From a virus: DNA of 64,000 nt. The position numbers and the translations under genes are program-made. Shown piece after piece: positions 4,233 to 62,855 of this stretch. Below the pieces are notes generated by a model that did not search any database, was not told the origin of the DNA, and saw nothing but the letters and a program-made list of their open reading frames with translations. The DNA lies in the IMG/VR virus record IMGVR_UViG_3300046002_005654, positions 1 through 64,000 of that record. One strand, written 5' to 3'. Every line of letters begins with the position of its first letter. Within the stretch, counting starts at the first letter, position 1.

Positions 4233-4895
4233 ATGATATTAGAATGTAAAAACAAAGGTAATAATAAATCTATTACAACTGGAAAAGAATACGAAGTTAT
4301 TAATGAAACTGAAACTAGATACGCTATCTTAAATGATAAGGGAATTCAAGCGAATTATGCTAAAAATTTATTTCAAAATGCAGTAAAAGAAGTTGTTATT
4401 CCTGTTATTGATGGTTTAGACATAGAAACTTCTGTTACTTTAGATAATAATATGCTTAACTTTAAAATTAATGTAAAAATTGAAGGTCAAGATGATTTCG
4501 TATTAAATAGTGGTAGAATTATGAACTTTAATGAATCTCATATAAGTTGCGGAATATACACATTATCTGAATTAAATGCATTAATGACTTTTATGACTAG
4601 ATTTCAACATCAATTTACTAGTTATTTATCATCTAAAATTAATATATTTACAGTTAATGAAGACATTGATTTTGATGAAATATATCAAGAAATCGCTGAT
4701 TCATTAATTCAAGATTTAATTGAATATGCTACTGGAAAATTCTTGTTTTTATTATTATCAACAAATATTAATAACAATCAAGCACATAACCAGCTAATAC
4801 AAAACTCATTAGACAAAGCGTCTGAAGCTGAATTAAGTGGAACTAACCCAAATAGTAATAATAATATTGAATTATGGGTCTTAAAATGTAATTAA
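4233..4895 (+). CDS. Hypothetical protein with an N-terminal SH3-like segment (220 aa)
   Basis: The first 45 residues contain an ITTGKEYEVI motif followed by a short beta-rich segment ending at YAKNLF. This is a pattern I associate with small SH3-like domains widespread in Bacteroidota and phage proteins. The rest is mixed: a stretch rich in asparagine and isoleucine, then an acidic alpha-helical region (about 140-185) and an asparagine-rich tail. It lies 11 bases after the helicase and runs directly into the next gene (stop at 4895, start at 4896), so it belongs to the same operon. Function unknown. Confidence 0.7.
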   Translation: MILECKNKGNNKSITTGKEYEVINETETRYAILNDKGIQANYAKNLFQNAVKEVVIPVIDGLDIETSVTLDNNMLNFKINVKIEGQDDFVLNSGRIMNFNESHISCGIYTLSELNALMTFMTRFQHQFTSYLSSKINIFTVNEDIDFDEIYQEIADSLIQDLIEYATGKFLFLLLSTNINNNQAHNQLIQNSLDKASEAELSGTNPNSNNNIELWVLKCN

Positions 4896-5237
4896 ATGAC
4901 AGAAAAGAATTTTGACTGGGTAGTAGAAAAAACCCTTGAAAGTATTAGAAATATACTCGTAATAAAAGGTAAAGAATATCGTAGATTTAGCAATCCTTTT
5001 CATAATTTTGAAGAGGCTGCTAAAGTTTTAAATACAACTAGAGAAGATGCTTTATGGGGTTTTGCAATGAAACATTATGTATCTATACAAGACATTAAAA
5101 CTGATTTAAGAATAGATGGAAAATTACCTCCTAAAGCTCAAGTTGAAGAAAAATATAATGACTTACTTATATATTTAATATTAGAAAAAGTAAGTTTAAT
5201 AGATAAAATTAATGAAAAAAAAGATTTGGCACATTAG
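4896..5237 (+). CDS. DUF1599 / nucleotide-modification-associated domain 1-like protein
   Basis: This is a small all-helical protein. The spacing of KGKEYRRFSNPFHNFEEAAK (24-43), followed by a tryptophan-glycine segment, MKH (79-81) and a conserved-looking D in KYNDLL, resembles DUF1599 (Nmad1), a family found in phages and near nucleotide metabolism genes. The assignment is by pattern memory only. The start directly follows the previous stop, and the end overlaps the metallophosphoesterase start by 26 bases. A helical, MazG-like nucleotide-binding role would fit the reductase and helicase neighbourhood, but no metal-binding ExxE/ExxD array is clear. Confidence 0.5.
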   Translation: MTEKNFDWVVEKTLESIRNILVIKGKEYRRFSNPFHNFEEAAKVLNTTREDALWGFAMKHYVSIQDIKTDLRIDGKLPPKAQVEEKYNDLLIYLILEKVSLIDKINEKKDLAH

Positions 5238-5898
5238 TGACACGCATTCATATCACAACCTATTAACAATACCTGAAGAAATAGATATCGTCATCCATAG
5301 TGGTGACGAATCTAATTCTAAAGACCAATATAGAAATGAACCAGAATTTAGAGATTTTATAAACTGGTTTGCTTGTTTACCAATTAAACATAAAGTATTT
5401 GTAGCTGGAAATCATAGCTCTTTTGTATATCATAATAAAAAAGAAGTTAACAAGATTTGTAAAGATTTAAATATTATATACTTAGAAGATGATTGGACTT
5501 TAATTGATGGAATATCAATATGGGGAAGCCCAGTTACTCCAAGTTTTGGAAACTGGTGGTTTATGAAAGATAGAAGTAAAATGGATAAACTATATTCATC
5601 TATTCCTGATTGGATAGATGTAGTAGTGTCTCACGGACCTCCTAAAGGAATATTAGATTTATCTTATGACTTAAATAACAAACTTGAATTTTGTGGCTGT
5701 AAAAGTCTTAGAAATCATATGTTAAATAGAGTTAAACCGCAACTATGTTTATTTGGACATATTCATAATACAGATGATATTATAAATGCAGGAACGGTAA
5801 AATTATCTGATTACGATACTATTTTTAGTAATGGATCAGTTGTAACAGATAGAAAATTTGGAAAATTAAGTAGTAATGGTAATATATTTGAAATATGA
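5212..5898 (+). CDS. Calcineurin-like metallophosphoesterase
   Basis: This is a binuclear-metal phosphoesterase of 228 residues. The ordered motifs are all present: D10-x-H12 (SDTH), G31-D32, G66-N67-H68, H141 (SHGPP) and G182-H-x-H185 (GHIH). Its length equals that of stand-alone phage phosphoesterases, and the substrate (nucleotide, nucleic acid end or phosphoprotein) cannot be told from sequence. The ATG at 5212 lies within the last codons of the preceding gene, giving coupled translation. It overlaps the next gene by 4 bases (ATGA). Fold certain; substrate unknown. Confidence 0.92.
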   Translation: MKKKIWHISDTHSYHNLLTIPEEIDIVIHSGDESNSKDQYRNEPEFRDFINWFACLPIKHKVFVAGNHSSFVYHNKKEVNKICKDLNIIYLEDDWTLIDGISIWGSPVTPSFGNWWFMKDRSKMDKLYSSIPDWIDVVVSHGPPKGILDLSYDLNNKLEFCGCKSLRNHMLNRVKPQLCLFGHIHNTDDIINAGTVKLSDYDTIFSNGSVVTDRKFGKLSSNGNIFEI

Positions 5899-6119
5899 TA
5901 ACAGCTAAAGAATTTATAAAAAATAACTCTCCATGTAGTATGGAGGGTTTTATGATTGAATTTGCAAAATTACACGTAGAAAAAGCTTTAAAAGAAGCTA
6001 GCGAAAATTTTACAATGAAGCAAAAAGATAATATGATTGAGCTCGATATGTGTGATGAATGGATGGAAGTTGATAAGAATTCAATTTTAAATGCTTATTC
6101 ATTAGAAAATATTAAATAA
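5895..6119 (+). CDS. Small conserved-looking phage protein (74 aa)
   Basis: The start overlaps the previous stop in an ATGA junction. The sequence consists mostly of a helical region containing FMIEFAKLHVEKALKEASEN (positions 19-38), a segment I recall from many small proteins of Bacteroidota phages, which supports it being a real gene. The C-terminus, NSILNAYSLENIK, is also typical of those proteins. No known function and no metal-binding or membrane features. Confidence 0.75.
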   Translation: MITAKEFIKNNSPCSMEGFMIEFAKLHVEKALKEASENFTMKQKDNMIELDMCDEWMEVDKNSILNAYSLENIK

Positions 6120-6121
6120 TT

Positions 6122-6244
6122 ATGTTTACTAAAATATTAACAAAAACAGAATTTTACTTATATTTTAAAGGCAAACTTATTTATAAGAAATGGTTGAGAA
6201 ATAATACAAGTAAAATATTTCAAGATTATAAAATATGGAAGTAA
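6122..6244 (+). CDS. Putative small basic protein (40 aa)
   Basis: An ATG two bases after the previous stop opens 40 codons ending in TAA. The product begins MFTKILTKTEFY and is rich in lysine and aromatic residues. It exactly fills the space between two accepted genes and overlaps the zinc-ribbon gene start by 10 bases, matching the dense packing of this block. Support is positional only; the product is too short for family recognition. Confidence 0.5.
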   Translation: MFTKILTKTEFYLYFKGKLIYKKWLRNNTSKIFQDYKIWK

Positions 6245-6432
6245 TTTACAAATTCAATAACGGAAACGGAGCTACATTATGTAATGAATGCAGAACAATA
6301 ATGGCTACTGGAAAAAAAGTAGAAAAATTATATTGTGATAAATGTCAAGAAAAAGTAAATAATATAGTTGTTAATTTTTATAAACAAATGGATAACGAAG
6401 TTTTGTTTAATAGAGGAAATTTAAATAAATGA
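6235..6432 (+). CDS. Small zinc-ribbon protein (65 aa)
   Basis: The product carries two CxxC knuckles, CNEC and CDKC, about 16 residues apart, inside a GNGATLCNECRTI context typical of minimal zinc ribbons in Bacteroidota phages. The remainder is a short helix. Such proteins often bind nucleic acid or another protein, but nothing here shows which. It starts within the 40-residue gene and ends with a 4-base ATGA overlap with the next gene. Confidence 0.75.
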   Translation: MEVIYKFNNGNGATLCNECRTIMATGKKVEKLYCDKCQEKVNNIVVNFYKQMDNEVLFNRGNLNK

Positions 6433-7142
6433 AAAAAATAACAGAATTACAAAAAAGAAACGAGCTTGGAGAAGGCAGAGATTTTGGAATAGGATTTTCT
6501 ATATTAAATAAAATTGGAAAAGTATTTGAAACTTATTTGCCTTTTACGGCTTGTAGAGATTACTTAAATGATTTTATATTTGTAGAAGATTGCGGAAAAG
6601 AAATCGGAGAAGCTTACGGATATACACATAAATTACTTAATTGTTTTAAAAAAAAACGTTTCTTTTTCTTAGGCGTAAATACTCTTCATAAAAATAAAGA
6701 TAATGGATTGTGGGATAAAAAAGAAGAAGCTGAATTAATATTAATTAATAATTATAAAAATTTAGAATCTTTTATAAATAAAATTGAATTAGATTTAGGC
6801 CTCAAATCTAAAACTACAATTGAATTAGATGAAGATACTTTAATTTTTAGAATTCCAATTTATTGGAGTAAAAAAACTCCATTAATTAGCGTATATACGT
6901 TACTGATAAGATGTTTTTTTAATATAAAAAATGATTTTGTTGTTACAGAAGATAATTTAAAAAATCACAAAACTTTCATACAAGACGACACTTATTTTTC
7001 AGCAAGTTGTGCTAAATTTTATCAAAATATTGGAAAAGTAAAATACGACAAATTTGATTATAAAGATTATGATGTTGTGTATACTAAATGGAGTACTGTA
7101 CATAATTTTGGAATACAAGGATTTTTAAAAACTATAATATGA
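6429..7142 (+). CDS. Hypothetical protein (237 aa)
   Basis: A lysine- and aromatic-rich protein without recognisable catalytic motifs or membrane segments. The basic patch KKKRFFFLG lies near residue 75. The start overlaps the zinc-ribbon stop and the end overlaps the next start by 4 bases, so it is embedded in the same polycistronic unit. I do not recognise the family. Confidence 0.7.
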   Translation: MKKITELQKRNELGEGRDFGIGFSILNKIGKVFETYLPFTACRDYLNDFIFVEDCGKEIGEAYGYTHKLLNCFKKKRFFFLGVNTLHKNKDNGLWDKKEEAELILINNYKNLESFINKIELDLGLKSKTTIELDEDTLIFRIPIYWSKKTPLISVYTLLIRCFFNIKNDFVVTEDNLKNHKTFIQDDTYFSASCAKFYQNIGKVKYDKFDYKDYDVVYTKWSTVHNFGIQGFLKTII

Positions 7143-7607: not shown

Positions 7608-10600
7608 TTATTTATCTATAAGATTGTAGAGTTTTTGATATTCTTTATCCATTTGTGCTGTTAATGGAAATGTTTTTTTAAGATGTTTAACGATTATATT
7701 TTTATGTTTTGCATCTTCACTTAAATAATCAAAAAATACTTCATTATTTTTTGGAGCAAAGTTTAATGGAGAGATAATATCGCTAACAGATGTTAATGCA
7801 TTTTGTATAAATCTATTTGCAGCTACTGGATTTTGGATCATTCTATTAAGCTCTCTAGGATCTCTAAATTGTGAAAGTTCCGATTCTAATCTCCTAAATA
7901 CATATAATGCAAAGAATAATTTATCATCATCATCTCCAGTTTTAGCTAATGCTAATATATAGCCAACTAATGGTAATATAACCATGGTTAAACCAATTTC
8001 TAATGTTGTTTTATTTAAATTAGATTTTTCATAGTCAGACAAGGAATTATAATTGTCTTTCATGTACGATATACTAAGATTTTTTAAAGCAGGAATGACT
8101 CCATTTACAAAAAATCTAGTAAATGAAGTATAAATACCTTCAGTAAATTCTTGTTGAGCATTATTAAAAGAAATATCATCGTCAGTCAATTCGTCTTTAG
8201 ATTTTAAAGAAGAACTTACGCCTTTATATCTATATTCAAGACCAGATAAAAAGAAGTTTTTAAACATCATTATTGTTTTTCCCCACCAAGTTTTAGCTAT
8301 TGAAGCTTTCATTAAAGGGTCGTAAACACCAAAAATATCGTGTCCCTTTTTCTTGATTAAATAATTTATATGAGTTTTTCCTCCTTTATGATATTCAGTG
8401 TCTAAATTCTTTTTAGTATAAACAACTTTATCACTCATTACTAATTTACCATCTGTATTTAAAGAAAGCATGTCAAATAATGAAGCTGATTTTTTTTCAT
8501 CAACAACATTACCATCTTTATCAATAAATTGTCTAGATTTATTCATTACTTTTATATCTCTAAGAATAGCTTCTGTAAGTATTGAGTTCATCATATGCTC
8601 ACCCATTTCATTTAAACCATTCATTGAATGAGTTGAAATTATTTTCTTAGCATAACTATTTCTAATAAATTCTTGGGTAGCTGTATCGAATCCTCCAAAA
8701 ATATCAAACATATCCAGCATTTGATTATGAAATGATTTTTTAACAGGTTGGTTTAAGTCTTCTAAAATACTCATTAAGTTTTTACCATAATTGTATTCAG
8801 CTTTTCTTAAATTTTCTCTATTAAAATATTCTCCACCAACAGCTTCCATAAACATTTGAGTAACTCCGTTAGCAACATTCACAACTCCTGAACCTAAATT
8901 CGCAGTCATTGCTATACTTGCGGCAAAACCATTAACCATTGAAGCGGCTTTAGCAGCTTCAATATTAGTTCCAAATATTTTTTCACCGCTATATGATAAT
9001 ATATCATATAAATGAGTTTCTAGTAAATCTTCTATTTTTTTAAGTTCATTACTATGTTCTCCACTAAATGTTTCTCCAAGCGAATTTTCAGCATATTTAT
9101 TTTGAAGCCATTTTCCAGTAGATTTAGATCTTTGTTTATAATCTTTATCTTTAGCTATATCTACAAATAATTTAAGCTGATTTTCTTTAGATTTCTTTTC
9201 TCTGTAATTTATTGCATTTAAAGCTTCTTTTCTATAAACAGTAAATAAATCTAATGATTGCTCTTTTGCTTCAACTCTAGATCTGTACCCTATTTTTATT
9301 ACATTTTTTTCTTTATTGTTTTCACCTATAGCTTTACCATAATTAATATCATCAGCTTTAGTGTTAGTTAAATCTGTCCATTTGTCTTTGAATTGACCTT
9401 TAACATCTCCTTCAAGTGTTCTTTCTAAGTCGCTTTTTGTTACAGAAGGTAATTTATAATAAACTGCTCCATAAGTCTTTCTTATTAAACTCATCTTACC
9501 GTCATAAGATTCTTTATTATTTTTTTCAGTTTCTGATTTAAAATAATTTAACAGTTCTAATTCTTCTTTAGATAATTCTTTGTTTCTATATTTAATTTTT
9601 GGTTGTGTGGAATTATTTATAATTATAGTATGTTCTTTAAACCAAGCAGCCCTCTTTTTTCTTAAAACTTGATATTCATCATCTTCTCTAAGTTGTTTTC
9701 TAAGTTCTTTTTGGTTTCCAAAAAAACCTTCATGACTAGCAATAGCTTCTTTAATTTCATTTAATATAGGATATAATTCATTTTCTACAGAATCTAAAAA
9801 ATCAGTAGTATATTCACTTTTTAAATAATAAGTTCCATTTTTACTTAATTGAACTATATTACCAAACATTTTAGATTGACTATTTTGACCGTATTTTTTA
9901 GAATATTTATCAAAAATTTTAGACATTTCAAATTGTTTATCATGATATGCTGTTATTATAGAATCTCTAATCTTACCTACTATATTAGACATTAGATTAA
10001 TTAAAGGAGAATTTATATTTAATAAGTCAGAAGCTTTAGATACCATTGAAGATATATCAAAATAAGGATCATATATAACTTTACTTGCGTCTTCTAATAA
10101 TGCATTGTTATAAGCTTCTTTGTATTTTGTAGAAATCATTCTTCCAAAATATGCTTCTTTAGTTTCTGATTTAATTCCTAATTTTGCATATTCTGCATAT
10201 ATTTTATTTTTCCAAATATTAACTATTTTAGTGTTATTTTCTGGTTTTGCAAATAAATTTATCGCATATGCTTTTTTAACATTTAAAAATCCAGCAACAA
10301 GAGTTTTATGATTTTTTTCTAAACCATTTAAAACGTTTTTTATTTCTTCTATTTGAATTTTTCCTTTTCTATCTAAAGTAGAATCATTTTGACTTCTTTT
10401 TATTAAGGAATTTATTTCATCTAAAAGGTCGTATGCTGAAAGATATTCATCATATGCATTCACAGTTTCTAGCATTTCTTGAGTTCCTATATCTTTATTA
10501 GATTTATTATCTAATATATCATATAGATCATCATTAATATCTAAAAGGTTTTTTTCTACTAATTGCTTAACACTATCGAAATCTTTATATTTTTCATAAA

Positions 10601-12101
10601 GATCTTCTGCTATAACATATTTTTGAGAATCACCAGTTGGTTTAAACATTTCATTTTCTGAAAAAGAATATGTAATATTATTATGAACTACAGATGCGGT
10701 TCTAAATGATTTTCTTAAATTGTTATTTAAATTATTAACAGCGCCACTGAATGATTTAGTGTATAAAGTAATAGCCTTCCATTGATTGTTTTTTTCTAGA
10801 TTTTTAATTTCATTCAATAAATCTTCAAATCCTTTTATAAATTTATCTTTTTCTTCTTTATTTTTTGTATTTATAGACGACTTGGTTCTTGTTATAAGTT
10901 GAGTTATTCTATCTATTGTTTGATCTATAGTGTGTTGTAATTGTTTAGCTATAGTATCTAATTCTATATTTTTATTGTCAATTTTTTGCTCAGATATTAA
11001 ATTATCAGAAACATCAACACCTACATAATTTCTTCTATCAGCTTCTACAAAATCAATTATAGATTCTATTAAATTATTAGCTTCTTTTGATTTAGCCATT
11101 CCAATTAACCTTCTAAAACTATTGATAAAATTAATCCAAAAACTAGTTTCATGTTCAGAATCTAAATCTTTTAATTCTTGTCTAAAATCAGGATTTGAAT
11201 ATATTTCAGCAATAAATTCTAATTCATTTTCAAAACCATAAGATTGGTTTTCTTTTGAATAACCCCCAGTCTTTCTAACGCTTTTATCTACCTGCTTATT
11301 AAAGTATTTATTAAACTGACTTTTTATTAAAGAACTAAATTCTCTTTCTTCAAAAGTAACTGGGTTTTTTATAGCTTGTATTGATTGAGCATGAGATATT
11401 TCATGTAAAATAGATTTGATTATCTCTCTCGGGCTATGATTTTTAATCCTATTCTTACTTATTTCAATCGTATTTGTCTTATTTTTTATTTGCATTAAAG
11501 TATCTAGGTTTTTCATATCTTCATCAGATACAAATTTAAATCTAGCTCCAGTCTTTCCAAATAACCTTCTTGATTTTTGAATCAATTCTTTTCCAATAGG
11601 ACTTAAATCATTAAAATTTTTAAGTATATTTTCAAGTATCTCATCTATAGTTAAATTTTCTTCTTTACCTCCAAATATAATTCTTTCATGCTCATGCGTA
11701 TAGTCTTTTTTAAAACTATTAACTTTTTCTTCTATAAAATTAACGCCTTTTAAAAGCATATCTTTCATTTCTAATGTGTCATCTACAAATTCAGAAAAAT
11801 TTTTTTTAGATGCAAAATCTCTATTTTTATTTTCAGACAATTTTAATAAATTAACATTTATTTCATTATTATTATTAGATATAAATTCATTTTCATTTAT
11901 ACTATCAATAAATTCATCTTGTCTTATTTTTTGCTTAGTTCCTTCTTTACTAAAATTATATTGTTTATTTTTATTTAAGGTAAATAGCTTAGAGTTTTTA
12001 ATTGCCTTCCAAGTTTCTATTCCTTTTTCATTTAACCTATCAGCTTCTTCAGGATTTTTTTCTCTTAAAGCTTTTTCAACATATTGAAAAGTACAACTCA
12101 T
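7608..12101 (-). CDS. Giant virion cargo protein with metalloprotease (HEISH) domain
   Basis: A 1497-residue protein, the most distal gene of the leftward structural block. Residues H233-E234-x-x-H237 (LHEISHA) match the zincin HExxH signature, followed by an acidic helical segment FENELEFIAEIYSN whose glutamates could give the third zinc ligand. Further hydrophobic stretches lie around the GFAASIAMTANLGSG segment, and there is one clear membrane-like segment about 110 residues from the C-terminus (VILPLVGYILALA). The arrangement resembles the large cargo or ejection proteins of crAss-like phages. Inference: it is packaged and ejected, and the protease may process cargo or host proteins. A non-virion role is possible. 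Confidence 0.75.
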   Translation of the reverse strand: MSCTFQYVEKALREKNPEEADRLNEKGIETWKAIKNSKLFTLNKNKQYNFSKEGTKQKIRQDEFIDSINENEFISNNNNEINVNLLKLSENKNRDFASKKNFSEFVDDTLEMKDMLLKGVNFIEEKVNSFKKDYTHEHERIIFGGKEENLTIDEILENILKNFNDLSPIGKELIQKSRRLFGKTGARFKFVSDEDMKNLDTLMQIKNKTNTIEISKNRIKNHSPREIIKSILHEISHAQSIQAIKNPVTFEEREFSSLIKSQFNKYFNKQVDKSVRKTGGYSKENQSYGFENELEFIAEIYSNPDFRQELKDLDSEHETSFWINFINSFRRLIGMAKSKEANNLIESIIDFVEADRRNYVGVDVSDNLISEQKIDNKNIELDTIAKQLQHTIDQTIDRITQLITRTKSSINTKNKEEKDKFIKGFEDLLNEIKNLEKNNQWKAITLYTKSFSGAVNNLNNNLRKSFRTASVVHNNITYSFSENEMFKPTGDSQKYVIAEDLYEKYKDFDSVKQLVEKNLLDINDDLYDILDNKSNKDIGTQEMLETVNAYDEYLSAYDLLDEINSLIKRSQNDSTLDRKGKIQIEEIKNVLNGLEKNHKTLVAGFLNVKKAYAINLFAKPENNTKIVNIWKNKIYAEYAKLGIKSETKEAYFGRMISTKYKEAYNNALLEDASKVIYDPYFDISSMVSKASDLLNINSPLINLMSNIVGKIRDSIITAYHDKQFEMSKIFDKYSKKYGQNSQSKMFGNIVQLSKNGTYYLKSEYTTDFLDSVENELYPILNEIKEAIASHEGFFGNQKELRKQLREDDEYQVLRKKRAAWFKEHTIIINNSTQPKIKYRNKELSKEELELLNYFKSETEKNNKESYDGKMSLIRKTYGAVYYKLPSVTKSDLERTLEGDVKGQFKDKWTDLTNTKADDINYGKAIGENNKEKNVIKIGYRSRVEAKEQSLDLFTVYRKEALNAINYREKKSKENQLKLFVDIAKDKDYKQRSKSTGKWLQNKYAENSLGETFSGEHSNELKKIEDLLETHLYDILSYSGEKIFGTNIEAAKAASMVNGFAASIAMTANLGSGVVNVANGVTQMFMEAVGGEYFNRENLRKAEYNYGKNLMSILEDLNQPVKKSFHNQMLDMFDIFGGFDTATQEFIRNSYAKKIISTHSMNGLNEMGEHMMNSILTEAILRDIKVMNKSRQFIDKDGNVVDEKKSASLFDMLSLNTDGKLVMSDKVVYTKKNLDTEYHKGGKTHINYLIKKKGHDIFGVYDPLMKASIAKTWWGKTIMMFKNFFLSGLEYRYKGVSSSLKSKDELTDDDISFNNAQQEFTEGIYTSFTRFFVNGVIPALKNLSISYMKDNYNSLSDYEKSNLNKTTLEIGLTMVILPLVGYILALAKTGDDDDKLFFALYVFRRLESELSQFRDPRELNRMIQNPVAANRFIQNALTSVSDIISPLNFAPKNNEVFFDYLSEDAKHKNIIVKHLKKTFPLTAQMDKEYQKLYNLIDK

Positions 12102-52534: not shown

Positions 52535-54040
52535 TTATCCTAGTAATGCAGGAATTAATGAAGCTGTACGAGAAGGATCTTTTACCATCGCTCCTGTTCC
52601 GCACATAGCAGTCATTGTAGCTGAATCTTCCATCAACTGCATGATACCACCTCTACGCCCAGAGAATGGATCACGAATACCTGCCATATAACCTCTTAAC
52701 TCATCATCACCACGAACTTTGATTTTTTGGATGTTTGGTTCTTCCATAGATCCGATATATAAGATATCATATCTGTAAGACTCAGCAACCCCACCATCTG
52801 GGTGAAGAATTTTGTTACGAACTTTATCATCATACATTGGATCAACTTCCAACATAATATGAATGTTATTAGGCGCTCTCCATTCTGTGAATTGGAAACC
52901 TCCTTGAAATGAATTATCATGGAATTTAGAAGAAACTCCTTTAATTGCATTTTGGTTGGTGTTATCAAACATTGATTTCCATCCTGATGCAGCAGCAGTT
53001 GCAGCTCTGTTAAATTGAGCAGCTCCTCTTTCTCCTGTACGTAACATGAATTTTCTTTCGTCAAAATCCAATTTACCTTCTGATAATTCAGAAAGAACAT
53101 CTTCTAAAAGACGCATTGAGAAACGGTTATAAGAAATAGTATTAGACACTTCCATTTGCTCACGAATACCAGAACCAGCTTTAATTTCAATATTAGAAGC
53201 TCCTTTATTCAAGAAACGACCATTTTCATCACGGTTAGTTTTTCCGAACATGATGGTACGAGATTTAATACGTGACAATGCTTTTTCAAACTGCCAGTAA
53301 ACCTCTTGCATCCAAGTTGTTGATTTATGTACTTTTCCTGTATTAGGATCACGAGTTTCGATACCTGCAAAATATACTGGCTCTACTTTAACATCAATCA
53401 TAGCTCCAGAAACTTTATGTTCCATACGAAGTGTAGAGATTGAATTTCTCATTAAATAAGGAGAAGTAAATTGAATACCAGCACCTCTTGTAGAAAGCTC
53501 GTCTTCTGTGTAAGCAGACTCAATACTGAATCTGTTTCCAGGTAAAAGTTCATCTCCAGGAATACCAGCTAGTGATTCTTGACCACCCCAAGCTTCGCAA
53601 GGATAAACATAATTTGAACCTTCTTCAAACGGCTCATCAGTAATTCTAATTTGATATACGTCTGGACGTGGTCCAGCAATAACATGCATTGCGGTAAACC
53701 ATTTTTCAGCAAATACCAATTCAAATTTACTACGAGCAATACCAACACCTACTGTATTAGTATCTACAACTCCACCAAAAGCACGTGCTTCAACAAGAGG
53801 AATATTTCTCTCGTCAGAACCAACAACTTTCCATACGAAGTCATCTGCTGTATTTAATACTTTCTCAGGGAATAAAGACAAAGTTGTATCTAAGTTTTTC
53901 ATTCCTGAACTTTGAAGTAACACAGTAGTTAACGGTGATACTAATTGTGGTTGAGATCCGAAGATAGCACCGATGTGATTTTTTAGCGTCAAGCCAGACC
54001 AAGCTTTACCTTTGGTCATTACAAACTTCCCTAAAGACAT
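52535..54040 (-). CDS. Major capsid protein
   Basis: The 501-residue length, position after scaffold and portal, and strong terminator identify it as the major capsid protein of crAss-like phages (HK97 fold by family knowledge). Residues 1-60 read MSLGKFVMTKGKAWSGLTL, then FGSQPQLVSPLTTVLLQSSG. The central region contains IAGPRPDVYQIRITDEPFEEGSNYVYP, and the C-terminus has DPFSGRRGGIMQL. CGT arginine codons are frequent here while AGA dominates the giant genes, as expected for very high expression. The leader is A-rich without a Shine-Dalgarno sequence. Confidence 0.85.
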   Translation of the reverse strand: MSLGKFVMTKGKAWSGLTLKNHIGAIFGSQPQLVSPLTTVLLQSSGMKNLDTTLSLFPEKVLNTADDFVWKVVGSDERNIPLVEARAFGGVVDTNTVGVGIARSKFELVFAEKWFTAMHVIAGPRPDVYQIRITDEPFEEGSNYVYPCEAWGGQESLAGIPGDELLPGNRFSIESAYTEDELSTRGAGIQFTSPYLMRNSISTLRMEHKVSGAMIDVKVEPVYFAGIETRDPNTGKVHKSTTWMQEVYWQFEKALSRIKSRTIMFGKTNRDENGRFLNKGASNIEIKAGSGIREQMEVSNTISYNRFSMRLLEDVLSELSEGKLDFDERKFMLRTGERGAAQFNRAATAAASGWKSMFDNTNQNAIKGVSSKFHDNSFQGGFQFTEWRAPNNIHIMLEVDPMYDDKVRNKILHPDGGVAESYRYDILYIGSMEEPNIQKIKVRGDDELRGYMAGIRDPFSGRRGGIMQLMEDSATMTAMCGTGAMVKDPSRTASLIPALLG

Positions 54041-57773: not shown

Positions 57774-60050
57774 TTAAGTAATAGCATTTTGTTGCCAATT
57801 ATTGTTTTGTATTGGTTTATAATTTTTATTAAAGAAGTTATCTGCAGACGCATTAGTTATCTTCTTATCTTGATTTCCTTTTGCCACAGCAGTTCTTTTA
57901 ACTCTATCTTCTCTTAATATAAATAACATACCAGCGGCTGAAACTCTATCAAAGTTACCATCACTATTCCAAGCTATACATTCTTCTACATATGGAATAC
58001 TTCTAAGTCTATGCATATTAAGTCTTTCATCTTCGTCATCTCCGTGAGCTTTTGTTTTCATCCACTCAGCTTGTAACATTCTTCCCCAGCTATTTATTTT
58101 TGCATTAGCATGAGTCCCTTTAGCTTTATTACCATATAGATTAGTTGCTTTAACCATATCCATATCTTTTAATATTTGAGGTACATCAGCAAGGTAGTGT
58201 AAACAATTTTTACTATCAAAATAACTAAATAATCCTTTTAAATTTGATTCATAATTAGCTTCTGCATTGTAAAATCTTAAACATCTTAATGCTATTTCAT
58301 AAGCTTCATTTGCTAATCTAGGTCTTCCTGAATATTCAGCAACTATCCTATCTGTAAATAAATCCATTATATGAATACTAAATAATGATCCACCTGTATC
58401 TGAATCAATAGGGTCAATCCCTGCTATATATCTACCTCGTTGAATATCTCCTTGAGCATTCTTTCTTGGCATTTCAAATATTTCAAGACATCCAGTTCTA
58501 TTGTTATCAGACGAATCATAAGCCCTTAATGGACTTAAGTCAGAATTAGGTTTCCATTCAACTTCTCCTAAGTTATTTAAAAGTAATTCACCAACATAGT
58601 GTTCAGCTAAAAACGATTCTTGTTTAGGCGCAATACTTTCAAGATACTCTTTTAAATCAGCCACAGGAAACATAGTTCCTTCAGTTCTCATTACAGCTTC
58701 TTGAGGAGTAATAGGTTCTTCAGCTTTTTTCTGAGTAATAGCTGTAGATTCAGATGAACTATACTTAACATCAAATCTATCTATTAATATCTCAACAAGT
58801 GCTTTAATTACATCTGGTTCTCCATTTGTATCATCATAACATCCATTACGATTTAAATATGCTCCCCAAAAGAAAGAACAAAGACTTTCTCCATTTGTAT
58901 TTTTATCAAATACATTTTTTAAAGCATATATATTATAAGCACCTGGTTTATAAAATAGTTTTTCAGAACCTGCAAATGAAGCTCCCATTGTACCTCCAGT
59001 CCCACCAGCTAGCATAAATCCAAACGCCACATCACCATCCTCAACAGCTTTTCTATTTACATTCCAAGCTTTTTCAAGATTATTAAATAGACCGTCTTCT
59101 TCATAATGAATTAAAGGGCCCCTAATACCCCTGGCTTTATCTGGATTATCCTTTAATGATATACCAAATATAGAGGCTAAGTTTCCTTTACGAGAACCAT
59201 ATTCGTCTAAGTATCCAAGCTGTAATTCCATAGCTTTTTTACCATCGACAATTCTATTCTTAGCTAAAGGAGTGTGTTCTCCAATCCAGTCTAACGTATC
59301 GAGAATCTTACCCCAGATTCCTTTATCACCTGATAGAAACGTTTTATCTGATGCCAAGTGAAAGTTTGGATTACCAGAACCTGGATATACGTACATATTA
59401 CGAGGAGACTCAGAAGCATTTTTAAAACTAAAACCGATTCCCCTAGTTTTGAGAACCTTACCATGTTGACCATTGTCTTTTGCTTGTTGTGTATAGTGAA
59501 AATATAGATAATCTCCAAGCCAAGCTTTAGCAAACTTCTTTACACGCTCTCCTTTTGACTTCTTATTTTCTGATTTTAAACCTACAGTTTCTACTAACCA
59601 TATTGGGCTGTAGTTCCAGTAGAAGTACAATGTTCCAGGAATCCATTCTCCGTCGGATTCCCTGACAACACCGTGCTTCCATTTATATAATTCATCTTTC
59701 CAAAACTGAGCATACTCAGATTTAGGATTTGAATTTCTTGGTATATTAGTATACCTTCCATTTTTTTCAAAGAATATGGCTGCTTGCCTAAAGTAGTCCA
59801 TATCCTCTAGTATATGTGGATTAGTTAAATCTACTTCAACCCTTCCGTCTTTATAAAATTTATCTTCTCGTGGTTTATCTTTACAGAAACCTCTTTCATC
59901 TTCTGATGATATAAGGTTTTGTATAAACTTAACACTTGATATATATTCTAACAGTTGGTCATATACTTCTTTTGGAATCTCTTTATTATCAAGCATTTTT
60001 CTATAATACGATATAGGTGTTTGATAATCATTAAGTCTATTTAAGTCCAT
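57774..60050 (-). CDS. terL: Terminase large subunit
   Basis: A 758-residue DNA-packaging motor. The ATPase motif I is KTRGIGFSF (201-209), the variant Walker A found in several terminases in which the GK step is replaced by GF. Motif II is probably IHYEEDGLF (around 315), with the paired glutamates. The C-terminal nuclease begins at YIAGIDPIDSD (around 555) with the first metal-binding aspartate. Its ATG is embedded in the last codons of the GroEL gene (CAATGGACTTAA), so translation of the two is coupled. Motif assignment is good; the small subunit is not certain. Confidence 0.88.
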   Translation of the reverse strand: MDLNRLNDYQTPISYYRKMLDNKEIPKEVYDQLLEYISSVKFIQNLISSEDERGFCKDKPREDKFYKDGRVEVDLTNPHILEDMDYFRQAAIFFEKNGRYTNIPRNSNPKSEYAQFWKDELYKWKHGVVRESDGEWIPGTLYFYWNYSPIWLVETVGLKSENKKSKGERVKKFAKAWLGDYLYFHYTQQAKDNGQHGKVLKTRGIGFSFKNASESPRNMYVYPGSGNPNFHLASDKTFLSGDKGIWGKILDTLDWIGEHTPLAKNRIVDGKKAMELQLGYLDEYGSRKGNLASIFGISLKDNPDKARGIRGPLIHYEEDGLFNNLEKAWNVNRKAVEDGDVAFGFMLAGGTGGTMGASFAGSEKLFYKPGAYNIYALKNVFDKNTNGESLCSFFWGAYLNRNGCYDDTNGEPDVIKALVEILIDRFDVKYSSSESTAITQKKAEEPITPQEAVMRTEGTMFPVADLKEYLESIAPKQESFLAEHYVGELLLNNLGEVEWKPNSDLSPLRAYDSSDNNRTGCLEIFEMPRKNAQGDIQRGRYIAGIDPIDSDTGGSLFSIHIMDLFTDRIVAEYSGRPRLANEAYEIALRCLRFYNAEANYESNLKGLFSYFDSKNCLHYLADVPQILKDMDMVKATNLYGNKAKGTHANAKINSWGRMLQAEWMKTKAHGDDEDERLNMHRLRSIPYVEECIAWNSDGNFDRVSAAGMLFILREDRVKRTAVAKGNQDKKITNASADNFFNKNYKPIQNNNWQQNAIT

Positions 60051-61501
60051 TGGCGTTCGTTCAATACAACAGTATCTGTTGATAGTATTGTTCTAGCTAC
60101 AGATACTGCATTTTCTAATGCACATCTAGTTACTTTAAGTGGGTCAATTATATTTTTTTCAAACATATCTGTCAACGCAGGAACCCCTATTATATCTATA
60201 GGTTTATTTAAACTAACAAGTATTCCTAATTCTACTGAATTATGAGATAAATCTTTTATTGTTTTAGCTACTATTTGATTTGCATTATATAAAGCTATTC
60301 CTCCTCCTTGAACAATTCCCTCTTCTAATGCACAAGATGTTGCCAGAACTGCATCATCATATCTATCTTTACGTTCTTTCATTTCTATTTCAGAAACTCC
60401 ACCAACTTTGATTATGGATATTTTTCCAGTAAGATTAGTTATTCTTTGTTCTATTAATTCCTTGTCTTGTTTAGTTAATTCTTTAAGTTTAGATAAAGCT
60501 TTTAAATCTTCTATGTATTCTTTAATGTCTACATCAGGATGTTTAACTAATATACTATTACTTTTAGTTACTTTTAAAGACTTTAATTTACCAAATGATG
60601 TTAGACTATATTGTTTAGTAAAATTGTTAATTAAATCAGCTCCTGTGAAGTCAGAGATATCACTAAGTAAGTCTTTTCTATATTGAGAAAATCCTGGAGA
60701 CTTAATAACACATAATTTTAATGATCCACTAAGGACGTTTGACTCTAACAATCTAAGTAGATTTTCAGAAAGACCTTCTGTAATAATTAATAATGATTCG
60801 TTATTTTCTGCTATTTGTTTAATAGGAGTTTCAAATGATTTAAGATTTTCTAACTTACCATCTATTAATAAAACATATGGGTCTTCAAAGTTACATTCAG
60901 CTTTCTTATTTGTATTTATAAAGTGTTTTGAAAAATATGATACTTGTAATGACATACCATCTATTAACTCTAATGAGTCTTCATTATCATTACTTTCTTC
61001 TACTTTAATTATACTTGCGTGATTATAAGCTTGTTGTATAATATCACCTATGTGAGTATCATTATTAGCCGATATGCTTGCAAGATATTTAATATCTTTA
61101 TGTTCTAATTTTCTTGAGTTTAGTTTTAGTTGTTCTAATACTTTTGGTATAATCTCGTCAAACGCTTTATTTATTTCATTAGAATCAAAGTCTTTTAGAT
61201 TCTGTATAAATGAATTAGCTAATACTATAGCCGTTGTAGTTCCATCACCTGCTAAATCAACTTGTAATTCAGCAACTTCTTTTACTATTTTAGCACCAAT
61301 ATTCTCTATAGCATTTCTAAAGTAAATCTCTCTAGCTACTTTAACTCCGTCTTTAGTTATTTCAGGATCTCCATATTGATTAGATATAATTACAGTCTTT
61401 CCATCAGGTCCCATTGTAGAAGCTACAGCTTGCGATAACTTTTCTACGCCACTAAATAATAGGCTTCTAGCTTCGTCTTTAAAATATATTTCTTTATTCA
61501 T
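60041..61501 (-). CDS. groEL: Phage-encoded GroEL-type chaperonin
   Basis: This 486-residue group I chaperonin folds proteins by ATP-driven encapsulation. MGPDGKTV (30-37), D51 in ITKDG, GDGTTTA (85-91; D86 equals GroEL D87), PGF in the apical domain (269-271), RKDRYDD with D383 (GroEL D398), QGGG (398-401) and IDPLKVTR with D453 (GroEL D495) retain the ATPase core. Compared with E. coli GroEL, about 14 residues are missing before D383, about 27 between D383 and D453, and the GGM tail is absent. In the substrate groove, GroEL Y203 is H193. It lies three genes after the GroES-like gene and overlaps the terminase start. Probable clients are capsid or packaging proteins. Confidence 0.95.
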   Translation of the reverse strand: MNKEIYFKDEARSLLFSGVEKLSQAVASTMGPDGKTVIISNQYGDPEITKDGVKVAREIYFRNAIENIGAKIVKEVAELQVDLAGDGTTTAIVLANSFIQNLKDFDSNEINKAFDEIIPKVLEQLKLNSRKLEHKDIKYLASISANNDTHIGDIIQQAYNHASIIKVEESNDNEDSLELIDGMSLQVSYFSKHFINTNKKAECNFEDPYVLLIDGKLENLKSFETPIKQIAENNESLLIITEGLSENLLRLLESNVLSGSLKLCVIKSPGFSQYRKDLLSDISDFTGADLINNFTKQYSLTSFGKLKSLKVTKSNSILVKHPDVDIKEYIEDLKALSKLKELTKQDKELIEQRITNLTGKISIIKVGGVSEIEMKERKDRYDDAVLATSCALEEGIVQGGGIALYNANQIVAKTIKDLSHNSVELGILVSLNKPIDIIGVPALTDMFEKNIIDPLKVTRCALENAVSVARTILSTDTVVLNERQWT

Positions 61502-61749
61502 AATTTATAATGTTCTTGATAATAATTATCAACATTAACTTCTTCAATTTCATCAATTCTTAATGATACTATATCATTATTATCTTGAATAAATTTAAAA
61601 TTTTTTGGAAAAGAACTATTATTTTCTAACATAAATATAAAATCATTTATATTTTGATCTATAATCTTATATGTATTATCTATCCATAATATTCTTCCAC
61701 CTGGATATTTTAATCTTCCTCTGCATTTTATAAATTCTATTTTATTCAT
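61498..61749 (-). CDS. Small hypothetical protein (83 aa)
   Basis: A basic then acidic small protein, MNKIEFIKCRGRLKYPGGRI, with DNTYKIIDQ and a Glu-rich C-terminus, probably a compact beta fold. It overlaps the GroEL start by 4 bases and the previous stop by 8 bases, so it belongs to the chaperonin-terminase unit. No family recognised. Confidence 0.65.
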   Translation of the reverse strand: MNKIEFIKCRGRLKYPGGRILWIDNTYKIIDQNINDFIFMLENNSSFPKNFKFIQDNNDIVSLRIDEIEEVNVDNYYQEHYKL

Positions 61750-62308
61750 AACTTAATCCGTCTTCAAATGCGTTAAGCGTTCTACTCCCTTTATTCCTTC
61801 CATCCATTTCTTTTTGCTCTGTTAAAACTTCCTTATAAGCAGCTTTAAGATTACGCATAATATCTGGTATTCCTTTATTAGCAGCTACAATCATTGGAAG
61901 TGTAGTTACAGTTCCGCCACTGCTAGTTCTTTCATCAAGTAATTCATTTGTTTTTAGAAGGTAATCTGATATATCATCAGCCGACTTTAATGAACTCTTA
62001 TATAGTTTAGCGATTGGACTTATAGACATCTTTTCGTAAAACTTAATAGCTTCACTAATAACAGTATCTATTTTCCAATCAGAATCTAAACCAATATCTT
62101 TTATTATTTCATTACGTCTAATTTCATTATTAGTCATATCTACATAGTCAGATCTAATATCTGAGTAATAATATATAAATAACATCTCTTTAAATGCAGT
62201 TTCTTTTTGTCTAGATTTATCTCTTTTAAGTATTGCCTTAAATGGCAAAACGCCCCAAGCTTCTTCTGAAACCTGGAGCGAGAAATCTACCATTGTAAAT
62301 AATTTCAT
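61742..62308 (-). CDS. Packaging-region protein, possible small terminase (188 aa)
   Basis: A mostly helical protein with LPFKAILKRDKSRQKETAF near the N-terminus and a DDISDYLLKTNELLDE region. I recall such proteins encoded ahead of terminases in Bacteroidota phages. No helix-turn-helix is obvious, so small terminase is only a guess from position. The start at 62308 overlaps the preceding stop by one base (TAATG); an internal ATG five codons later is also possible. Confidence 0.6.
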   Translation of the reverse strand: MKLFTMVDFSLQVSEEAWGVLPFKAILKRDKSRQKETAFKEMLFIYYYSDIRSDYVDMTNNEIRRNEIIKDIGLDSDWKIDTVISEAIKFYEKMSISPIAKLYKSSLKSADDISDYLLKTNELLDERTSSGGTVTTLPMIVAANKGIPDIMRNLKAAYKEVLTEQKEMDGRNKGSRTLNAFEDGLSYE

Positions 62309-62496
62309 TATTTTTTGAGCATAATAGGCTCCGCCTCTACAACTTCTGGTTCTTTTACTGGTTCAAAATGAGCCTTTAAAAGATCTAATGCCTGACTAAC
62401 TACGGCTGAGTCTTTCAGTCCAAACGCACCTTTTGTTGATGCCATATTTAATGCTTGTTCTATTACGCTTACTACTTGTGTCATGTTTGTTTCCAT
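62308..62496 (-). CDS. Small hypothetical protein (62 aa)
   Basis: A short helical protein, METNMTQVVSVIEQALNMAS, with KGAFGLKDSAVVSQALDLL and a Glu/Pro-rich C-terminus. It overlaps both neighbours by one base. The pattern GAFxLxDSxxVxxAL is one I associate with small Bacteroidota phage proteins of unknown function. Confidence 0.6.
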   Translation of the reverse strand: METNMTQVVSVIEQALNMASTKGAFGLKDSAVVSQALDLLKAHFEPVKEPEVVEAEPIMLKK

Positions 62497-62855
62497 TACT
62501 TTAAAAATTTTGCTTTAATAAATCTATCTTCAATTATTGCGAAAGTATTTAGACCTACTTGAATAGGGTCTATCTTAACTTGTTCTCTTACTTCGTAAGC
62601 ATTATTTGATTCTGTTTTAACAGGAACCATCATTTTTTCTATATCTATAAGTACTTCATCTCCAGCGGAAACGGTTATGTCTCTAAAATTTATTGTTCCG
62701 GCAACTATAAACTGCCTGTCTGATAGTACATTTTCTGATAATACTAATTCACCATCTTCCTCTAAGTTATTTAAAGTAATAATTACTTTATTAAATAACG
62801 GTTGTAACGGAAAATCAATTATAACCTCTCCAACCTCTTCTTTACTCAATCTCAT
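62496..62855 (-). CDS. GroES-like co-chaperonin
   Basis: The product is 119 residues. QPLFNKVIITLN (18-29) parallels the N-terminal PLxDRVIV strand of GroES, SAGDEVLIDIEKMM parallels the VGDxVxF strand, and TFAIIEDRFIKAKF matches the last ILAIVE-type strand. Between them is a Gly/Glu/Ser-rich stretch (EEDGELVLSENVLSD) where the mobile loop would be. Length is close to T4 gp31 (111) and a little over GroES (97). The match is weaker than for GroEL, but the GroEL gene is three genes downstream in the same operon. Likely caps the phage or host GroEL ring. Confidence 0.65.
   Translation of the reverse strand: MRLSKEEVGEVIIDFPLQPLFNKVIITLNNLEEDGELVLSENVLSDRQFIVAGTINFRDITVSAGDEVLIDIEKMMVPVKTESNNAYEVREQVKIDPIQVGLNTFAIIEDRFIKAKFLK

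Follow-up and report, generated by a model that had tools for sequence, protein, structure and literature searches.

Some phages carry genes for both GroEL and GroES, many carry GroES only and a few GroEL only (PMC7185714). Phage T4 gp31 and RB49 CocO are strongly divergent GroES proteins that use the GroEL of the host and likely act in the folding of capsid protein, and the T4 capsid protein gp23 requires the phage lid gp31 (PMC3396610). The chaperonins of the giant phages EL, OBP and AR9 are phage GroELs working without a lid, single rings in OBP and AR9 and with a remodelled ring-ring face in EL. In E. coli, GroEL needs its second ring for ejection of the lid. An engineered single-ring GroEL was trapped with wild-type GroES and became functional in cells once the mobile-loop contact was weakened (PMC5575113). 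Here, we analysed a chaperonin cassette, entirely on the minus strand, in a 64,000-base stretch of viral DNA (the window, bases 1-64000 of the 95,510-base record IMGVR_UViG_3300046002_005654), in which a GroEL gene and a GroES-like gene lie upstream of terL, the gene of the terminase large subunit. The virus was assigned to Crassvirales by its terminase (PHROG 6681), portal (PHROG 6547) and major head protein (PHROG 11589). Its GroEL lacks both inter-ring contact sites, its lid is altered and co-evolves with the GroEL, and the base of the ring is hypervariable between close relatives; these three traits are new to the records and papers searched, the pair itself being known and common in the clade.

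The window GroEL (486 amino acids (aa), 54.0 kDa, 60041-61501) gave a clear match to the Cpn60 family in the profile search (Pfam Cpn60_TCP1, PF00118, 6.9e-49) and to PHROG 5725 'chaperonin groEL' (1.4e-118), and every match among PDB sequences was a chaperonin. The AlphaFold2 model showed the three-domain fold, with a predicted local distance difference test score (pLDDT) of 90.3, and the 50 Foldseek matches listed were group I chaperonins (GroEL/Hsp60) with a template modelling score (TM) of up to 0.89. For the residue comparison, 62 Crassvirales phage GroELs and 30 bacterial GroELs were mapped on E. coli GroEL. The equivalents of the ATP-site residues D52, D87, D398 and D495 were unchanged in all 62 phage proteins, and the nucleotide-binding motif GDGTTT was present in the window (aa 85-90, 61232-61249). 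The inter-ring residues A108/A109 were deleted in 46, E461 in 54 and S463/V464 in 59 of the phage GroELs and were lost in none of the 30 bacterial ones; the window and most of the clade show deletions or substitutions at the double-ring contact residues K105/A109/E434 and R452/E461/S463/V464. One contact site of the window GroEL is lost at the junction F105/D106 (61184-61189), which lacks five residues of E. coli GroEL (about 107-111, A108 and A109 among them), and the other (E461, S463, V464) within a segment at the ring base (aa 405-448, 60158-60289). The ring-ring stretch 446-486 of E. coli had a median length of 20 aa in the clade, compared to 41 aa in hosts and 41 aa in five other phage GroELs. 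By this mapping, the window GroEL keeps the ATP site and has lost both inter-ring contact sites. L237, L259 and F204 of the apical groove were mostly kept among the 62 phage proteins; the position of L234 was charged in most of them, V263 was replaced by Glu in 46 and V264 mostly by Ser or Thr.

The 119-aa GroES-like protein (13.5 kDa, 62496-62855), taken alone, had no match in Pfam (E<=1; for Cpn10 none at E<=10 either), PHROG or PDB, and its gene was likewise missed when the complete genome record was scanned for Cpn10. A tblastn search with this protein reached a 'putative 10kDa chaperonin' of cr116_1 (E 0.03), a gene found at the same position upstream of terL in cr116_1 and crAss001. With a profile built from nine relatives, Cpn10 chains were top-ranked among PDB sequences (E 0.019), and relatives of the protein matched PHROG 3188 'co-chaperonin GroES' (1.6e-5) and Pfam Cpn10 (0.0019). 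Profile-profile comparison with host GroES, a set made of the GroES proteins found beside bacterial groEL genes, gave a probability of 92.7% over the whole length for the GroES-like family and of 74.6% for the clade alone, as compared with 0.1% for four neighbouring cassette families used as controls; the mixed-family alignment was too diverse to serve for the DNA scan. The first 29 Foldseek PDB matches of the AlphaFold2 model (47 homologues, pLDDT 81.5) were all Cpn10/GroES. Residues 33-41 (62733-62759), the only part with a pLDDT below 50, correspond to the mobile loop and include L37-V38-L39. The protein is therefore a distant GroES relative by family and fold, as the preliminary description had proposed, and not by a direct Pfam match.

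The mobile-loop region was 18 aa long with a net charge of -5 in the window clade, compared to 22 aa and -1 in hosts. In relatives without a detected GroEL it was 24 aa long with a net charge of +1, three of these being fragments in which the absence of GroEL is unproven. Unlike T4 gp31 and RB49 CocO, lids with a host-compatible loop in phages that have no GroEL, the window lid comes with its own GroEL and has a shorter, acidic loop that is not host-compatible. The window phage also differs from EL, OBP and AR9, whose chaperonins work without a lid, in having a dedicated, co-evolving lid gene. The tree distances of GroES and GroEL were correlated at 0.86, the highest value among cassette pairs, and the partial correlation given terL and a 188-aa neighbouring gene was 0.62, as compared with 0.35 or less for any other pair; at the level of these protein trees, the two chaperonins co-evolve more closely than their neighbours, which suggests that the phage GroES would be a heptameric lid binding the phage GroEL. 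Both genes are under purifying selection, with 0.05-0.11 nonsynonymous (dN) vs 0.24-0.83 synonymous (dS) changes per site in seven pairwise comparisons. The idea of a dedicated phage folding machine, put forward in the preliminary description, is thus well supported, the two genes being conserved, selected and co-evolving. Compared with bacterial GroEL/GroES, the pair shares the domain architecture, the ATP site, the position of the apical groove and a lid with a mobile loop of the L-V-L type; it differs by the loss of both inter-ring sites, the absence of a GGM tail, several changed groove residues, the shorter and acidic loop, the non-adjacent genes and the hypervariable ring base.

GroEL is among the most conserved proteins, so a hypervariable surface on it was unexpected. 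Aa 405-448 correspond to about 417-488 of E. coli GroEL, on the ring-ring face, and differ almost completely between close relatives, the segment being 15-30% identical where the remainder of the protein is 90-98% identical. The related loci and contigs compared with the window carry L-numbers. Between the window and L007 GroELs the identity was 11% in the segment and 92% elsewhere, with a sharp boundary in the DNA and no frameshift. In the pair L029 and L030 the segment was 15% identical, while the terL and GroES-like proteins were 100% identical and the DNA 98.7% over 8.9 kb. Among 56 phage pairs with over 83% identity elsewhere, the median identity of the segment was 26%, and 91% of the pairs were below 35%. 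The same segment in 243 bacterial GroEL pairs, used as a control, had a median of 69% and a minimum of 54%, and in three other phage pairs (phi38:1/Calle_1, DAC16/SJC03 and cr108_1/L234, the last being the sole close pair tested for its group) it was 82-99% identical, that is, not hypervariable. Alleles were also shared across divergent backbones: the segment was 70% identical between the window and L022 (elsewhere 67%) and 83% between L045 and L035 (elsewhere 67%). It was always present in the clade, with a length of 34-61 aa, and retained a weak P...I..NG pattern resembling APLRQIVLNCG of E. coli. A frameshift origin was rejected, no other frame being open in the window or in L007. No silent donor copy of the segment was found outside GroEL in the DNA examined, the whole 95.5-kb record included. 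A diversity-generating retroelement is unlikely, since the alleles vary in length, and no search aimed at one was made. On the contig L049 two divergently oriented GroEL/terL sets (4394-6679 and 9983-11464) were seen, with GroELs 84% identical outside the segment; the assembly is probably chimeric or palindromic.

On balance we lean, with modest confidence, to a cognate phage chaperonin and lid that would work as a single ring with a loosened lid, a capsid-protein client and a hypervariable base. The phage GroEL would form a seven-subunit ring, most likely acting as a single one since both ring-joining contact sites are gone; the apical domains would move on ATP as usual, and the ring would be capped by the phage GroES. 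This lid would be held more loosely, through the short acidic mobile loop and the altered apical groove, so that the cycle could turn over without a second ring. We infer such a cycle because the removal of the ring joint and the change of the lid contact occur together in the phage pair. The main client would probably be the major capsid protein (501 aa, 55.7 kDa, 52535-54040; PHROG 11589, 2.3e-145). The GroEL/GroES cage holds roughly 60 kDa, so the terminase (86.7 kDa), the portal (92.9 kDa) and the largest phage proteins (1,500-2,500 aa) are too large, which leaves the capsid protein as the plausible client; of the clients named in the preliminary description, capsid, portal and giant proteins, only the first would thus fit. 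Relatives without GroEL, which have a host-like loop, probably use the host GroEL in the way of T4 gp31.

Several observations weigh against the single-ring model with its loosened lid. With V263 and V264 gone, the binding of clients could be weaker as well. The loops are long in three gut and Cellulophaga crAss phages that carry both genes, and the loop differences follow clade boundaries, so they are not independent observations. The GroELs of phi14:2, cr108_1 and cr111_1 were not firmly grouped with the window clade, and a single origin of all was not rejected (p-AU 0.28). The lost contacts do not prove a single ring either, because the phage EL chaperonin forms double rings by new contacts despite the loss of helix Q (PMC7185714). 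A remodelled double ring of this type, in which the segment would make allele-specific contacts and only rings of the same phage would pair, would account for a segment that is always present at 34-61 aa and for the weak pattern kept in it. A homotypic interface would, however, be expected to be conserved or to drift slowly, while this one is wholly changed between proteins 98% identical elsewhere, and the other contact site is deleted too; we regard this arrangement as unlikely. The two proteins might also be used apart. The phage GroES would then serve the host GroEL, and the phage GroEL would take the host lid or none at all, as in EL, OBP and AR9; of the 12 complete Steigviridae genomes, 9 indeed have the GroES-like gene and no GroEL. 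Such unpaired use appears improbable, since it is precisely the clade with an adjacent GroEL whose loop is no longer of the host type and the partial correlation of GroES with GroEL is the strongest in the cassette.

Returning to the single ring with its own lid, the base segment is replaced in blocks, most likely because an agent touching the base, either a host factor or rings from co-infecting phages, favours new variants. We infer that the exposed base is under diversifying selection. We give a nearly even chance to the ring base being an exchangeable recognition surface under such selection, a module of 34-61 aa swapped in blocks so that the rings evade a base-docking host factor or pair only with their own kind. 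A neutral or recombination-driven origin is possible: the variable segment might be a mere side effect, the constraint on a free ring base being relaxed and blocks being swapped by recombination or by neighbouring homing endonucleases. The recombinational sharing of alleles fits with this, as do the GIY-YIG/NUMOD3 endonuclease-type open reading frames (ORFs) that 14 of about 50 loci have beside GroEL. Relaxed drift, however, would not swap a whole block with the rest unchanged, and flanks and neighbours stay identical, as in L029/L030. In the pairs examined, the endonuclease genes do not track the alleles either: L050 and L052 both carry one and differ in the segment, and L028 and L029 have the same allele and differ in where the ORF sits. 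Such genes could help allele exchange and do not account for the replacement of this segment alone, and we hold the side-effect origin to be rather doubtful. One ORF cluster (166-234 aa) was seen at varying cassette positions between the GroES-like gene, the 188-aa gene and GroEL in L031, L029, L028, L050, L052, L094 and others; its L031 member matches GIY-YIG/NUMOD3 homing endonucleases, and the window is without such an ORF there.

If the proposed cycle is right, nature would offer here a single-ring chaperonin that brings its own lid, and with it a test of the rule drawn from engineered GroEL, that one ring suffices with a loosened lid. If the base is an exchangeable recognition surface, a GroEL would have a face shaped by an arms race or by self-recognition; neither this nor a hypervariable segment was found reported for any chaperonin in the literature searched. 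The hypervariable surface hints that phage folding machines have a partner or an antagonist, which can now be sought. In the same literature search no discussion of Crassvirales chaperonins was found, a main 2017 survey of viral chaperonins (Marine) lying outside it.

The pair had been presented in the preliminary description as exceptional in a crAss-like genome. This claim falls, since the survey of Crassvirales found the pair to be routine in related phages and already annotated. Among 80 contigs chosen by terminase alone, 44 had at least 4.5 kb of upstream DNA; both genes lay upstream of terL in 39 of these, the GroES-like gene only in 3 and GroEL only in 2. The GroES-like gene was present in all 12 complete Steigviridae genomes and GroEL in three (phi14:2, cr108_1 and cr111_1), crAss001 and eight others having none; both genes are already annotated in GenBank for cr111_1. 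In these three genomes, as for crAss001 gp15, a homologous GroES-like gene occupies the same place upstream of terL; unlike in the window, GroEL is found at a greater distance upstream in these genomes, separate from terL, and the end of helix D is retained. Outside the crAss phages, GenBank holds phage-encoded pairs in other Bacteroidota phages, the Flavobacterium/Cellulophaga phages immuto, elemo and Calle_1, where the genes are adjacent or nearly so and GroEL keeps most of the ring-ring segment. In total, 288 phage records had a GroEL relative, and a search for relatives of the cr111_1 GroEL in viral contigs found none. In L220 (cr115_1, Suoliviridae) a gene at 830-1183 annotated 'putative chaperonin' was not matched by the GroES-like profile and may be an independent Cpn10.

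In the GroEL tree, the proteins fused to terL formed one supported group (33 rows), and those of phi14:2, cr108_1, cr111_1 and the fragments L123 and L125 were placed elsewhere on long branches. The GroES-like gene is more widespread in the family than GroEL, which suggests that it is older there. With GroES-only and GroES/GroEL members side by side in Crassvirales, it can be traced how phages went from borrowing a machine of the host to having their own. In the Crassvirales fragments L123 and L125, GroEL keeps far more of the ring-ring segment, is unfused to terL and groups with the Elemovirus GroEL, possibly a second acquisition.

The minus-strand order is a zinc-ribbon protein (106 aa), ORFs of 152 and 102 aa, the GroES-like gene, ORFs of 62, 188 and 83 aa, GroEL, terminase and portal. 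The two chaperonin genes are three genes apart, with the GroES-like gene upstream, and the ATG of terL (758 aa, 57774-60050; PHROG 6681, 2.9e-105) at 60050 lies inside the last GroEL codons, the GroEL stop being at 60041; on both points the preliminary description was accurate. This 10-nucleotide (nt) overlap (60041-60050) is kept in most related loci, where terL starts 10-22 nt inside the GroEL end in most of the 72 compared. Consecutive cassette genes overlap by 1-14 nt throughout, except for the first pair (68 nt). Because the whole run overlaps, the GroEL/terL overlap is ordinary and shows only one tight operon; translational coupling was rejected as special evidence, and the proposed link of the chaperonin to packaging has little to rest on. 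The 62-aa ORF (62308-62496) belongs to a small family recurring between the GroES-like and 188-aa genes (a cluster of 33 ORFs in related loci). The conserved 188-aa gene (61742-62308; PHROG 16390, unknown function), a relative of crAss001 gp16, lay between the two chaperonin genes in all complete cassettes. The 83-aa ORF (61498-61749) overlaps both neighbours and was without relatives in all the loci fetched; it might have been inserted recently or have been misread as an ORF. Away from the cassette, two adjoining ORFs at about 87000-88390 of G000:C1 (3992-5390 of L015), on the strand opposite to the structural genes, resembled by eye gamma-glutamyl-gamma-aminobutyrate hydrolase-like glutamine amidotransferases.

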